NCBI RefSeq assembly: GCF_009380135.2
Contig: NZ_WHUT02000003.1
Span: 186,001-250,000 of the forward strand
Direction of reading: 5' to 3'
Origin: Fertoeibacter niger
GTDB lineage: Bacteria; Pseudomonadota; Alphaproteobacteria; Rhodobacterales; Rhodobacteraceae
Length of the DNA stretch: 64,000 bases
In this document: positions 19,445 through 44,991 of the stretch, piece after piece
Position numbering within the stretch: position 1 is the stretch's first letter
How the letters are laid out: each line of letters starts with the position of its first letter
The notes under the pieces: generated by a model
Database searches by the model: none
What the model was told of the DNA's origin: nothing
Seen by the model: only the letters and a program-made list of their open reading frames with translations
Translations under genes and position numbers: made by a program

Positions 19445-21075
19445 TCCGCTTTGCCGCCCTGTTCGACGCGCTGGACCGCACGACGAAAACCAATGCCAAG
19501 GTAGCAGCGCTAGCGGAATATTTCCGCGAGGCGCCCGAGGCTGACCGGCTCTGGACCATCGCGCTTTTATCGGGCCGCCGCCCGAAACGCGCTGTCACCA
19601 GCACCGAACTGCGCATATGGGCGGCAGAGGCGGCAGGCCTGCCCTTGTGGCTGGTGGAAGAGGCCTATCCCGTGGTGGGCGATCTGGCCGAAACCATCGC
19701 CCTGATCCTGCCCGCAGCAGGGCAGACCAGCGACCGCCCGCTGGCCACATGGATCACCGACCTGATCGCGCTGACCGGCCAGCCCGCCGCCGCGCGGCGC
19801 AGCTTCATTCTGGCGGCGTGGGACCAGCTGGCAACCGCCGAGCGGTTCCTGTTCAACAAGCTGATCACCGGCGGTTTCCGCATGGGGGTCAGCCGGGGCC
19901 TGATGACCCGCGCGCTGGCCGAGGCGACGGGCATCGCCGAATCCGCCCTTGCGCACCGGCTGATGGGCGACTGGTCGCCGCAGACCACCAGCTATGCCCG
20001 GCTGATCGCACCCGATGACCCGCAGGCAGACGCGGCGAAACCCTATCCCTTTGCCCTCGCCGCAGCACTGGAGGCAGAACCGGGCAGTCTGGGCCAGCCA
20101 GGCGACTGGCTGGCGGAATGGAAGTGGGATGGCATCCGCGGCCAGCTGATCCACCGGCCGGGCGCTTTCGCGCTGTGGTCGCGGGGCGAAGAGCTGATCA
20201 CCGACCGTTTCCCCGAATTCGCGCCGCTGGCCGATTTTTTGCCGATGGGCACGGTGATCGACGGCGAGGTGCTGGCCTGGCATGCGGCGGGCGACGGCGC
20301 CCCCCAGCCCTTTGCCGCGCTGCAAAAGCGCATCGGGCGGCTGAACGTGTCGAAGAAGCTGCTGGCCGAGGCCCCGGCGCGGATGCTGGCCTATGACCTG
20401 CTGGAAGACGCGGGCCAGGATATCCGTGCGCGGCCCCTGGCCGAACGCCGCGCCCGTCTGGCCGCGATCATCGCCGCCCTGCCCGGCGGCATGGCGCTGG
20501 CCCTGTCGCCCCCCGTGATGGCGGATGACTGGGCCGGTGTCGCAACCCTGCGCGCGACGGCACGGGACCGCAACGCCGAAGGCCTGATGCTGAAACGCCT
20601 GTCATCGCCCTACCATCTGGGCCGCAAGCGCGGCGACTGGTGGAAGTGGAAGCTGGACCCCCACACCGTCGATGCCGTGATGATCTATGCGCAGGCGGGC
20701 AGCGGCCGGCGCGCCACGCTTTATACCGATTTCACCTTTGCGGTGCGTGACGGCGACGATCTGGTGCCCTTCACCAAGGCCTATTCCGGCCTGACCGATG
20801 CCGAATTCCGCCAGATCACCGACTGGGTGCGCCGCAACACGTTGGAGCGTTTCGGCCCGGTGCGCCGCGTGCCGCCGGAACTGGTGTTCGAACTGGCCTT
20901 CGAAGGCATACAGGCCAGCCCCCGGCACAAATCGGGCATCGCGCTGCGGTTTCCGCGCATGATCCGCTGGCGGCGCGACAAGCCGGTGGCCGAGATTGAT
21001 ACATTGGACACGCTGCGCGCGTTGCTGGCCGGGCAGCGGGGGTTTTCCACCCCCGCACCCCCGGAGGATATTTAA
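19441..21075 (+). CDS. ATP-dependent DNA ligase
   Basis: 544 residues. An N-terminal helical DNA-binding domain (about 1-190) is followed by the adenylation domain with motif I EWKWDGIRGQ (catalytic Lys), motif III VIDGEVLAW, motifs IV and V (AEGLMLKRLSSPY, DWWKWKLDP) and an OB-fold C-terminal domain. It seals nicks in DNA repair, accessory to the essential NAD-dependent ligase. It overlaps the exonuclease gene by 4 bp. The partner helicase and metallophosphoesterase seen in some genomes are not next to it. Its last dozen codons (RGFSTPAPPEDI) and stop come from dispersed repeat copy C, so the tail is not ancestral. Confidence 0.94.
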   Translation: MIRFAALFDALDRTTKTNAKVAALAEYFREAPEADRLWTIALLSGRRPKRAVTSTELRIWAAEAAGLPLWLVEEAYPVVGDLAETIALILPAAGQTSDRPLATWITDLIALTGQPAAARRSFILAAWDQLATAERFLFNKLITGGFRMGVSRGLMTRALAEATGIAESALAHRLMGDWSPQTTSYARLIAPDDPQADAAKPYPFALAAALEAEPGSLGQPGDWLAEWKWDGIRGQLIHRPGAFALWSRGEELITDRFPEFAPLADFLPMGTVIDGEVLAWHAAGDGAPQPFAALQKRIGRLNVSKKLLAEAPARMLAYDLLEDAGQDIRARPLAERRARLAAIIAALPGGMALALSPPVMADDWAGVATLRATARDRNAEGLMLKRLSSPYHLGRKRGDWWKWKLDPHTVDAVMIYAQAGSGRRATLYTDFTFAVRDGDDLVPFTKAYSGLTDAEFRQITDWVRRNTLERFGPVRRVPPELVFELAFEGIQASPRHKSGIALRFPRMIRWRRDKPVAEIDTLDTLRALLAGQRGFSTPAPPEDI

Positions 21076-31969: not shown

Positions 31970-32503
31970 ATGGTGAAAACCGTCCGCGACTATATCCGCA
32001 CCATCCCCGATTTCCCGCAGGCGGGCATCCTGTTCCGCGACGTGACCACGCTGTTCGCAGATGCGCGCGGGTTCCGCATGGCCATCGACCAGTTGCTGAC
32101 GCCCTATGCCGGCCTCCGGATCGACAGGGTGGCGGGGCTTGAGGCGCGGGGCTTCATCCTGGGGGGGGCGGTGGCGCATCAGCTGTCCACCGGCTTTGTC
32201 CCGATCCGCAAGAAGGGCAAGCTGCCCGCCCGCACCATCGAACAATCCTACCTGCTGGAATATGGCGAGGCGGTGGTGGAAATGCATGACGACGCGCTGC
32301 AACCCGGCGAAAAGGTGCTGCTGGTCGATGACCTGCTGGCCACCGGCGGCACAGCCGAGGCGGGCATAAGGCTGATCGAGCGGCTGGGGGCCGAAGTGGT
32401 CGGCTGCGCCTTTGTCGTCGATCTGCCCGATCTTGGCGGTCGGAAAAAGCTGGAGGCGCTGGGGATGGAGGTGCATGCCCTTTGCGCCTTTGAGGGGCTC
32501 TGA
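31970..32503 (+). CDS. apt: Adenine phosphoribosyltransferase
   Basis: 177 residues. The PRPP-binding motif [14 protein letters not shown] and the N-terminal [20 protein letters not shown] are diagnostic. It converts adenine plus PRPP to AMP in the cytoplasm. With mtnP upstream in the same run, the adenine from methylthioadenosine can go straight back to AMP. The 3' flank holds an elaborate AT-rich cruciform. Confidence 0.96.
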
Positions 32504-32567
32504 CCGCCTTCATCCGGGCAAAGGTGCCCCCGCCGCAGGCTCCCCGCGGCGTTATGCGGGTCCACCC

Positions 32568-32634
32568 GCCTGTTGCCCAAAAATCTTCGAAGATTTTTTG
32601 CAAGAATTTTACAGAAAATTCTTGGGCAACAGGC
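32568..32634. terminator. AT-rich three-way cruciform after apt
   Basis: A 13-bp outer stem (32568-32580 with 32622-32634) encloses two inner palindromes: AAAATCTTCGAAGATTTT (32580-32597) and CAAGAATTTT-ACAG-AAAATTCTTG (32601-32624). The second inner stem overlaps the outer right arm by three bases, so two foldings compete. It lies between convergent apt and the FAD dehydrogenase. A terminator is likely but the shape is unusual. Confidence 0.75.
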
Positions 32635-32703
32635 TTCCACGCTGCGGGGCCTCGGTCTGGCGAGCCGAAAACCCTCACCAGCCATCGCGGGCGGTCAATG
32701 ACG

Positions 32704-32738
32704 GAGGCCTCCGGCGGGGATATTTTTGGCAGAAAATG
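32704..32738. repeat. Dispersed intergenic repeat, copy D (short form)
   Basis: Same orientation as copy C. It contains CCTCCGGCGGGGATATTTTTGG followed by CAGAAAATG, without the long GGGGG hairpin of copies A to C. It lies just past the end of the FAD dehydrogenase gene. Confidence 0.7.
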
Positions 32739-32789: not shown

Positions 32790-34202
32790 TTAACCGCGCA
32801 GCACCGCCCCGGGGTTCATGATGCCGTACGGGTCGAGAGCCGCCTTGATCGCGCGCATCGCGGCCAGCTTGGCCGGGTCGCCATAGCGTTCCAGATCACC
32901 CACTTTCAGCCGCCCGATGCCATGTTCCGCGCTGACCGAGCCGCCAAAGCCATGCACCATGTCATGCACCAGCGACTTGATCGCGTCGCGGCTGTTTTCG
33001 TGGTCGGCGCGGCTGCGGCCCCGCACCGGAAAGACATTGTAATGCAGGTTGCCGTCGCCCAGATGGCCAAAGCAGTTGATGCGCCAGTCGCCCAGCCGGG
33101 CCAGCGCCGGGCCAGCCGCCGCGATGAAATCGGGCACCGCCCCCAACGGCAGCGAAATGTCATGGCTGGAAATCGCGCCGATCCGCCGGTTGCCCTCGGG
33201 GATATTCTCGCGGATGGACCAGAAATCCGCCCGCTGCGCACCCGATTGCGCGATCAAGCCATCGCTGACCAGACCCGCCGCCATCGCTGCTGCAAACAGG
33301 CCTTCCAGCGCCGTCGCGGGGTCAAGGCCCTGCGGCAGGCCCAGGTCGATCAGCACCATCCATTCGGGCGGGCTGGCAAAGGGCTGGCGCAGGTCGGGCA
33401 TGGTTTCGGCCAGAAAATCAAGCCCCATGCGGTGCATCAACTCGAACGCCGACACCAGCCCGCCCAGCCGTGCCTGCGCCATGGCCAGCAGATCCAGCGC
33501 GGCTGCCGGGCTTTCCACCACCAGCAGCGCCGTGCCCTGACCGGCAGGGATCGGCGACAGTTTCAGGCTGGCGGCGGTGATCACGCCCAGCGTGCCCTCG
33601 GCCCCGATCAACAGGTTCTTCAGATCATAGCCGGTGTTGTCCTTGCGCAGCCGTTTCAGCCCGTGCCAGACCGTGCCATCGGGCAGCACCGCCTCCAGCC
33701 CCAGGCACAGGTCGCGGGCATTGCCATAGCGCAGCACATTCACCCCGCCCGCATTGGCCGAAAGGTTCCCCCCGATCCGGCACGACCCTTCCGACGCCAG
33801 CGACAGCGCAAACAGCCGGTCCGCCGCCAGCGCCGCCGCCTGCACATCGGCCAGCACCGCCCCCGCCTCGGCCACCATCACATTCTCGGCGGGATAGACC
33901 GCGCGAATGGCAGTCATCCTTTCCAGCGACAGGATCAGTGGCAGCGGGCCCGATGGCATCACCTGCCCGCCCACCAGCCCGGTACCGCCCCCAAGCGGCA
34001 CGATGCCGACGCGGCCCGCCGCACAGGCGCGCACAACTGCCGCCACTTCATCCGCGCTGCGCGGCAGCGCAACGGCGCCACCCTGCCCGTGATAGCGCCC
34101 GCGCGGCTCGGCCAGATGGCGCGGCTCGGGCGTGCGCAGAGTGTCTTCGGGCAGGCGGGCGGCCAGGGCGGCCACAAAGCCGGGATCGGCGGGGTTCAGC
34201 AT
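32790..34202 (-). CDS. FAD-binding 2-hydroxyacid dehydrogenase (GlcD / D-2-hydroxyglutarate dehydrogenase type)
   Basis: 470 residues. An N-terminal FAD-binding type-4 (PCMH) domain (VPLGGGTGLVGGQ, then SEGSCRIGGNLSANAGG) is followed by the FAD-oxidase C domain ending ISAEHGIG-like (SVSAEHGIGRLK, DPYGIMNPGAVL). It oxidises a D-2-hydroxyacid, such as D-2-hydroxyglutarate, D-lactate or glycolate; sequence reading alone does not decide which. The ATG at 34202 has GGAGG five bases upstream and is preferred over the GTG at 34208. It is a single-gene unit. Confidence 0.92.
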   Translation of the reverse strand: MLNPADPGFVAALAARLPEDTLRTPEPRHLAEPRGRYHGQGGAVALPRSADEVAAVVRACAAGRVGIVPLGGGTGLVGGQVMPSGPLPLILSLERMTAIRAVYPAENVMVAEAGAVLADVQAAALAADRLFALSLASEGSCRIGGNLSANAGGVNVLRYGNARDLCLGLEAVLPDGTVWHGLKRLRKDNTGYDLKNLLIGAEGTLGVITAASLKLSPIPAGQGTALLVVESPAAALDLLAMAQARLGGLVSAFELMHRMGLDFLAETMPDLRQPFASPPEWMVLIDLGLPQGLDPATALEGLFAAAMAAGLVSDGLIAQSGAQRADFWSIRENIPEGNRRIGAISSHDISLPLGAVPDFIAAAGPALARLGDWRINCFGHLGDGNLHYNVFPVRGRSRADHENSRDAIKSLVHDMVHGFGGSVSAEHGIGRLKVGDLERYGDPAKLAAMRAIKAALDPYGIMNPGAVLRG

Positions 34203-34267
34203 CAGCACCTCCGGGGTTGGGCCGGAACCTAGCCCGCCCTGCGCCCGCCTGCCAGCCCCTGCCCTGA

Positions 34268-44906: not shown

Positions 44907-44991
44907 CATTTCCTGTTCAGAAATATCCTCGGGGGTGAGGCGCGAAGCGACGAGGGGGCCCGAGGGCCCCCTGAATTTTCGCAGAAAATTC
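44907..44991. repeat. Dispersed intergenic repeat, copy E, with rpoH terminator hairpins
   Basis: Starts with CATTTCCTGTTCAGAAATATCC-type family text, then GGGGGCCC/GGGCCCCC (44954-44971), then GAATTTTC-GCA-GAAAATTC (44973-44991), which lies directly after the rpoH stop on the minus strand. It sits between convergent genes. The last hairpin resembles the inner stem of the apt cruciform (CAAGAATTTT/AAAATTCTTG). Confidence 0.75.

Follow-up and report, generated by a model that had tools for sequence, protein, structure and literature searches.

The closest described counterparts of the element reported here are the REP/BIME sequences of enterobacteria. These are short dispersed extragenic palindromes with paired hairpins, present in tens to hundreds of copies. 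They lie at the 3' ends of genes or between the genes of an operon, and hardly ever in divergent gaps. For REP stems, a GC-rich stem with a GTAG-type foot is a criterion. In rhizobia, ERIC and RIME are further examples of lineage-restricted intergenic palindromes. A third point of reference are intrinsic terminators, gene-end hairpins with a stable GC-rich stem and a U-tract. The RepRanger paper (PMC12306157) contains a single mention of Alphaproteobacteria and none of Rhodobacterales.

Here, an AT-rich pair of palindromes, A+B, is described that was found downstream of apt in a 64,000-nucleotide stretch of Fertoeibacter niger (the window). Like REP/BIME elements, A+B is extragenic, dispersed, palindromic and present in tens of copies, its hairpins are paired, and its copies lie at the 3' ends of genes and between genes of operons, and almost never in divergent gaps. 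It differs from them in being AT-rich (core 31% GC, no GC-rich stem with a GTAG-type foot), in the fixed order of A and B with the fixed words AAAA and CTT, and in its conservation in nine genera at a single orthologous site. The Y1 (RAYT) transposase (PF01797) is absent in 15 of 18 element-rich genomes, including that of F. niger itself, G136, G216, G005, G002 and G091. Because most carriers are devoid of this transposase and a GC-rich stem is lacking, we favour the view that A+B is similar to REP/BIME in behaviour without being a member. RAYT-type mobility was rejected, as most carriers have no Y1 transposase. ERIC and RIME are lineage-restricted as A+B is, but differ from it in length, composition and architecture. 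With intrinsic terminators, A+B shares the gene-end hairpin followed by a T-run and the bidirectional placement. By contrast, its stems are weak and AT-rich, it comprises two hairpins, and it is also present within operons. Instead of a stable GC-rich stem and a U-tract, it has a T-run of 4-5 and an inner stem of about -2 kcal/mol. As far as could be found, the A+B family was previously unnamed: the sequence of the palindromes had no match in the literature searched, and the best Rfam matches are far below the gathering scores.

The copy downstream of apt

A first-pass annotation had described an AT-rich three-way cruciform after apt, with a 13-bp outer stem around two inner palindromes. This is accurate to the base: GCCTGTTGCCCAA pairs with TTGGGCAACAGGC over 13 bp and encloses the hairpins A and B (Table 1). 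Hairpin B is formed by CAAGAATTTT (32601-32610) and AAAATTCTTG (32615-32624). The competition for three bases between an inner stem and the outer arm is real, too, as B and the outer arm have 32622-32624 (TTG) in common; hairpin A shares two bases with the other outer arm (AA, 32579-32580). A GC-rich stem, CCCCGCGGCGT/ACGCTGCGGGG, surrounds the entire AT structure. The predicted RNA fold has -56.4 kcal/mol (z -5.5), a value equalled by 0 of 200 shuffles, and the DNA fold has a z of -7.0. For the minus strand a different RNA fold is predicted, a long hairpin that unites the arms of B and A. Nowhere else in the window does the AT content reach 75% over 24 bases, in agreement with the AT-richness remarked upon at first, and the pattern of hairpin B is expected 0.00 times in shuffles.

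Table 1. Features at and around the A+B copy downstream of apt and the related hairpin downstream of rpoH (positions within the window).
Feature	Position	Strand	Sequence and remarks
apt (adenine phosphoribosyltransferase; Pribosyltran domain)	31970-32503	+	gene name from the earlier reader and synteny
GC-rich enclosing stem, 5' arm	32542-32552	+	CCCCGCGGCGT; like the arms of the GC hairpin after apt in relatives
Outer stem, 5' arm	32568-32580	+	GCCTGTTGCCCAA; copy-specific, absent as a family feature
A+B core element (repeated unit)	32574-32627	+	covariance model R1, 74.4 bits, best match of the genome
Hairpin A	32579-32598		perfect palindrome AAAAATCTTCGAAGATTTTT = AAAAATCTT-CG-AAGATTTTT; family form CAAAA-NN-CTT..AAG-NN-TTTTG
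Hairpin B	32601-32624		CAAGAATTTT-ACAG-AAAATTCTTG; family form CAAG-NN-TTTT..AAAA-NN-CTTG
Outer stem, 3' arm	32622-32634	+	TTGGGCAACAGGC; shares three bases with the end of hairpin B
GC-rich enclosing stem, 3' arm	32639-32649	+	ACGCTGCGGGG
Dispersed repeat GGATATTT	32703-32738	+	GGAGGCCTCCGGCGGGGATATTTTTGGCAGAAAATG; directed away from the core at a distance of 94 bp
FAD-linked oxidase gene	32790-34208	-	convergent with apt
rpoH-downstream hairpin	44973-44991	-	GAATTTTCTGCGAAAATTC; 7-bp core of B, without A

The repeated unit

The structure had been taken for a single one. A DNA search of the F. niger genome yielded seven more long stretches that match the two inner hairpins, and a covariance model built from 25 copies found 53 matches at E<=0.1. 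Since the motif also matches on the opposite strand, these merge to about 29 sites. The unit has a length of ~50 bp and the form C-AAAA-NN-CTT-loop-AAG-NN-TTTT-G, directly followed by CAAG-NN-TTTT-loop-AAAA-NN-CTTG (core consensus CAAAANNCTT/CAAGNNTTTT); its core of 31% GC is embedded in flanks of 69% GC. A and B are near-obligate partners: 17 of 18 exact-form A palindromes and all 14 exact-form B palindromes of the genome belong to A+B pairs, and the reversed-pattern controls for both gave 0 matches there. The lone unpaired A-type palindrome (AAAAATCTTGCTGCAAGATTTTT) is located at G000:C11:421811-421833. Median stabilities are -6.6 kcal/mol for A and -7.8 kcal/mol for B; A minus its U-paired end has -1.9 kcal/mol. 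Loop lengths range from 1 to 5 inside one genome. In addition, genome-specific loop lengths are common to A and B; all scored copies of G216 have CG centres, and those of G091 mostly 3-nt loops.

The three-way junction is not supported as the unit. Across 82 copies from six genomes, native flanks had no pairing advantage over flanks exchanged within a genome (mean stem 3.91 native, 3.90 exchanged; duplex energy -31.8 and -31.9, respectively), which ruled out the outer stem as a family trait. A few copies, the window copy included, bear long enclosing stems. Competition between the arms of A and B was likewise discarded as a selected trait, with identical words in 14 of 61 copies compared to 13.9 expected. 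The three-way look is local, and the outer stem of the window copy is copy-specific.

Distribution among genomes

The covariance model matches at least 71 of 199 Rhodobacteraceae genomes (one per genus) at E<=0.01. This number is a lower bound, as only 29 candidates per genome were scored, and the weakest single matches may be due to chance. Among 187 genomes from other alphaproteobacterial families, none matches at 1e-4. Judged by these searches, the A+B element is specific for Rhodobacteraceae. Named records with strong matches comprise Rhodobacter, Pseudooceanicola, Seohaeicola, Maritimibacter, Roseovarius, Marinosulfonomonas and Frigidibacter. A strong match was also observed in a record labelled as an actinobacterium (L206, JAFKDC010000017.1, Enemella evansiae TN21-6). 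This record agrees with a contig of G002, which belongs to the Rhodobacteraceae by kinship, and the Enemella label is probably wrong. There are 28 pattern matches on viral contigs. The phage genomes searched contain no match to the element, and a phage origin was set aside on this ground.

Location relative to genes

Genes were called with a simple codon-usage caller, and other 40-400 bp gaps from the same loci and the window served as background. Among 66 clear cases, 32 copies are located in convergent, 30 in co-directional (16/14 by orientation) and 4 in divergent gaps, compared to 8, 40 and 8 in the background (p = 8e-5 for convergent). A second set composed of other named Rhodobacterales records gave 18 convergent, 10 co-directional and 0 divergent gaps for 28 clear cases (background 9/42/9). 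Between several convergent genes, the element nearly fills the gap between both stop codons, with 2-8 bp to spare on each side. On these gene calls, A+B sits at gene 3' ends in both orientations, enriched in convergent gaps and nearly absent from divergent ones.

Orthologous sites

In nine genera, the gap between hslV and hslU carries the element, without any change of orientation among them. The hslV stop codon lies inside or at the edge of hairpin B, and the start codon of hslU comes next. When the stem pairs were counted by script, 155 of 162 were Watson-Crick pairs, and many positions had two or three types of pair. G·U-type pairs number 6 and A·C 0, and four of the six are the same T·G pair of the stop codon. 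The stop codon within hairpin B is TAA or TAG in these nine genera (L314, L317, L323, L324, L327, L329, L336, L337, L339). In five of the nine, its partner base is A and not G, and this exchange keeps the pair. Hairpin A is GC-rich at this site in one genus. A tree of HslV, drawn for the history of gain and loss at the site, is weakly resolved.

Downstream of apt, whose orthologues are mostly 74-89% identical, the element is present in 3 of 30 loci, those of F. niger, G005 and G216. The copy of G216 is reversed and more GC-rich. In several relatives, apt is followed by a GC hairpin (CCCCGC..GCGGGG), and one comparison suggests, as the simplest reading, that A+B lies in the loop of this hairpin in F. 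niger. Such a position would explain the nested three-way look of the window copy.

On Leisingera plasmids, the element is located between the genes for succinate-semialdehyde dehydrogenase and an aminotransferase in a gap of 79 bp. In Phaeobacter inhibens, the same gene pair is separated by 30 bp without the element, so that presence and absence differ between close relatives. The loops differ freely among Leisingera strains. Between species with ~94% gene identity, one A-T pair of stem B is replaced by G-C. Near the loop of A, two copies carry a mutation in one arm only. Furthermore, on two Leisingera plasmids (L381 and L382) the same response regulator gene is followed by a further A+B copy. 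Their downstream genes differ, and a pair of A is broken in one copy.

Covariation in the stems

Relatives do keep the pairing, by paired stem changes. In a model-based alignment, 98.6% of the stem cells pair vs. 84.2% in shuffles, and two-sided changes are found at 17 of 19 stem pairs. As this alignment was fitted to the structure and includes both strands of many sites, a count with one row per site was added: The NN positions of 63 among 65 A hairpins, and of 68 among 69 B hairpins, are complementary. They vary, while the words AAAA and CTT are fixed. All sites pooled comprise 2028 Watson-Crick, 22 G·U and 26 A·C cells. In co-directional copies, the transcribed strand has as many G·U as A·C cells (6 vs. 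6; second set 1 vs. 1). Constraint on one RNA strand alone would favour G·U. As G·U does not exceed A·C, the palindrome is held symmetrically for both strands, be it through use of both strands, DNA structure or template switching.

Association with a dispersed repeat

The first-pass annotation had noted a dispersed repeat near both the apt structure and a hairpin after rpoH. This repeat, GGATATTT, has the form GGAGGCCTCCGGCGGGGATATTT-n-GCCAGTAAGAA and is found at 32718 (+) and 44928 (-), respectively; the window contains further units at 21066 (+), 35155 (-) and 5397 (-). The association holds over the A+B sites of the genome. In its 29 loci, 10 of 12 GGATATTT-type units lie 26-94 bp from the A+B core; nine of the 29 sites are accompanied by the repeat, and ten of ten units point outward. 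The p value of 5e-9 refers to mostly coding flanking DNA and reflects in part a common preference for intergenic regions. GGATATTT is often preceded by GC palindromes (GGAGGCCTCCGGCGG or CCCCCG) and followed by CAGAAA or CAGTAAGAA. Similar units also follow apt in other genera.

One inner stem of the apt structure had been reported to recur after rpoH. A hairpin is indeed present there, but only a 7-bp core is common to both, and the A partner is missing. The order after rpoH (44940-44991, minus strand) is AT hairpin GAATTTTCTGCGAAAATTC, GC hairpin GGGGGCCCTCGGGCCCCC, GGATATTT. The two hairpins are possibly a relative of A+B in which one hairpin turned GC-rich, as in the hslV-hslU copy of G117.

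Possible functions

The unit, its copy number, the paired changes, the position at gene ends, the conservation between hslV and hslU and the link to GGATATTT can be read from the genomes directly, and from them we infer an effect on transcripts. On the reading that we favour as the most likely, A+B would be a strand-symmetric, REP-like boundary element of mRNA 3' ends that acts as a weak terminator or as a 3' barrier; we give this proposal about an even chance of being correct. Whichever strand is transcribed, the RNA would end in or pass two successive hairpins. These could slow or partly terminate RNA polymerase and shield the upstream mRNA from 3' exonucleases, so that A+B would be an AT-rich counterpart of REP/BIME elements. 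Several findings speak against such a role. The hairpins are weak and not terminator-like in a consensus scan. In operons such as hslVU or the aldehyde dehydrogenase-aminotransferase pair of Leisingera, full termination would leave the following gene silent. The element is missing from most orthologous apt sites. Finally, G-U is as rare as A-C even on the transcribed strand, unlike what constraint on RNA only would produce.

Alternatively, A+B could be a mobile, self-propagating repeat of REP or MITE type without a role for the host, tolerated at 3' ends and not at promoters, in which template switching during replication keeps the palindromes perfect by copying changes from arm to arm. Hairpins are known to arise and persist through template switching (PMC8794818), and the rarity of G-U would be expected for a process at the DNA level. 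The near-identical genome-specific copies (CG centres in G216, mostly 3-nt loops in G091), the patchy distribution and the empty Phaeobacter site occupied in Leisingera fit this explanation as well. We nevertheless consider it rather unlikely, since the element is conserved between hslV and hslU in nine genera in one orientation, AAAA and CTT are fixed despite the variation at NN, and 15 of the 18 carriers checked lack a Y1 transposase.

It is unlikely that A+B serves as a DNA-level site, either as four half-sites AAAANNCTT (> < < >) or as a cruciform, bound by a nucleoid, gyrase-type or recombinase protein between converging genes. Loops from 1 to 5 within one genome would be incompatible with a rigid dimer on duplex DNA, the NN positions are complementary though variable, so pairing itself counts, and no candidate protein was identified. 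Such a site would account for the fixed words with strand symmetry, equal G-U and A-C, the excess in convergent gaps and the genome-specific loop lengths that A and B share; moreover, a core of 31% GC in flanks of 69% GC would readily extrude.

An ordinary bidirectional intrinsic terminator would fit the position between convergent genes, and on both strands the inner stem of A is preceded by an A-tract and followed by 4-5 T. However, the stem is too weak and GC-poor, it is not recognised by the consensus scan, the near-obligate hairpin B is left unexplained, and copies are present inside operons, which makes this reading improbable. A gene for a small RNA, or a riboregulator that switches between folds, initially suspected from the competing folds that both strands of the window copy do show, is not indicated and highly improbable, as competition is no family trait, a scan revealed no promoter-like site, and no Rfam family corresponds.

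In an extended form, the proposed boundary element would represent a novel, Rhodobacteraceae-specific class of strand-symmetric transcript boundaries, in which a dedicated factor reads the AT-rich hairpin pairs, with their fixed words AAAA and CTT and their genome-specific loop length, and cooperates with the downstream GGATATTT. This extension is doubtful.

Significance for Rhodobacteraceae

The description of transcript ends in the GC-rich Rhodobacteraceae seems sparse, as judged from a limited literature search. The A+B family provides defined, countable gene-end structures with natural compensatory variants and natural absences, and the gap between hslV and hslU is an operon site where an effect would be directly measurable. 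With G·U and A·C at the same low frequency, the family also offers a clean way to distinguish selection on RNA from template switching on DNA as the source of paired stem changes.
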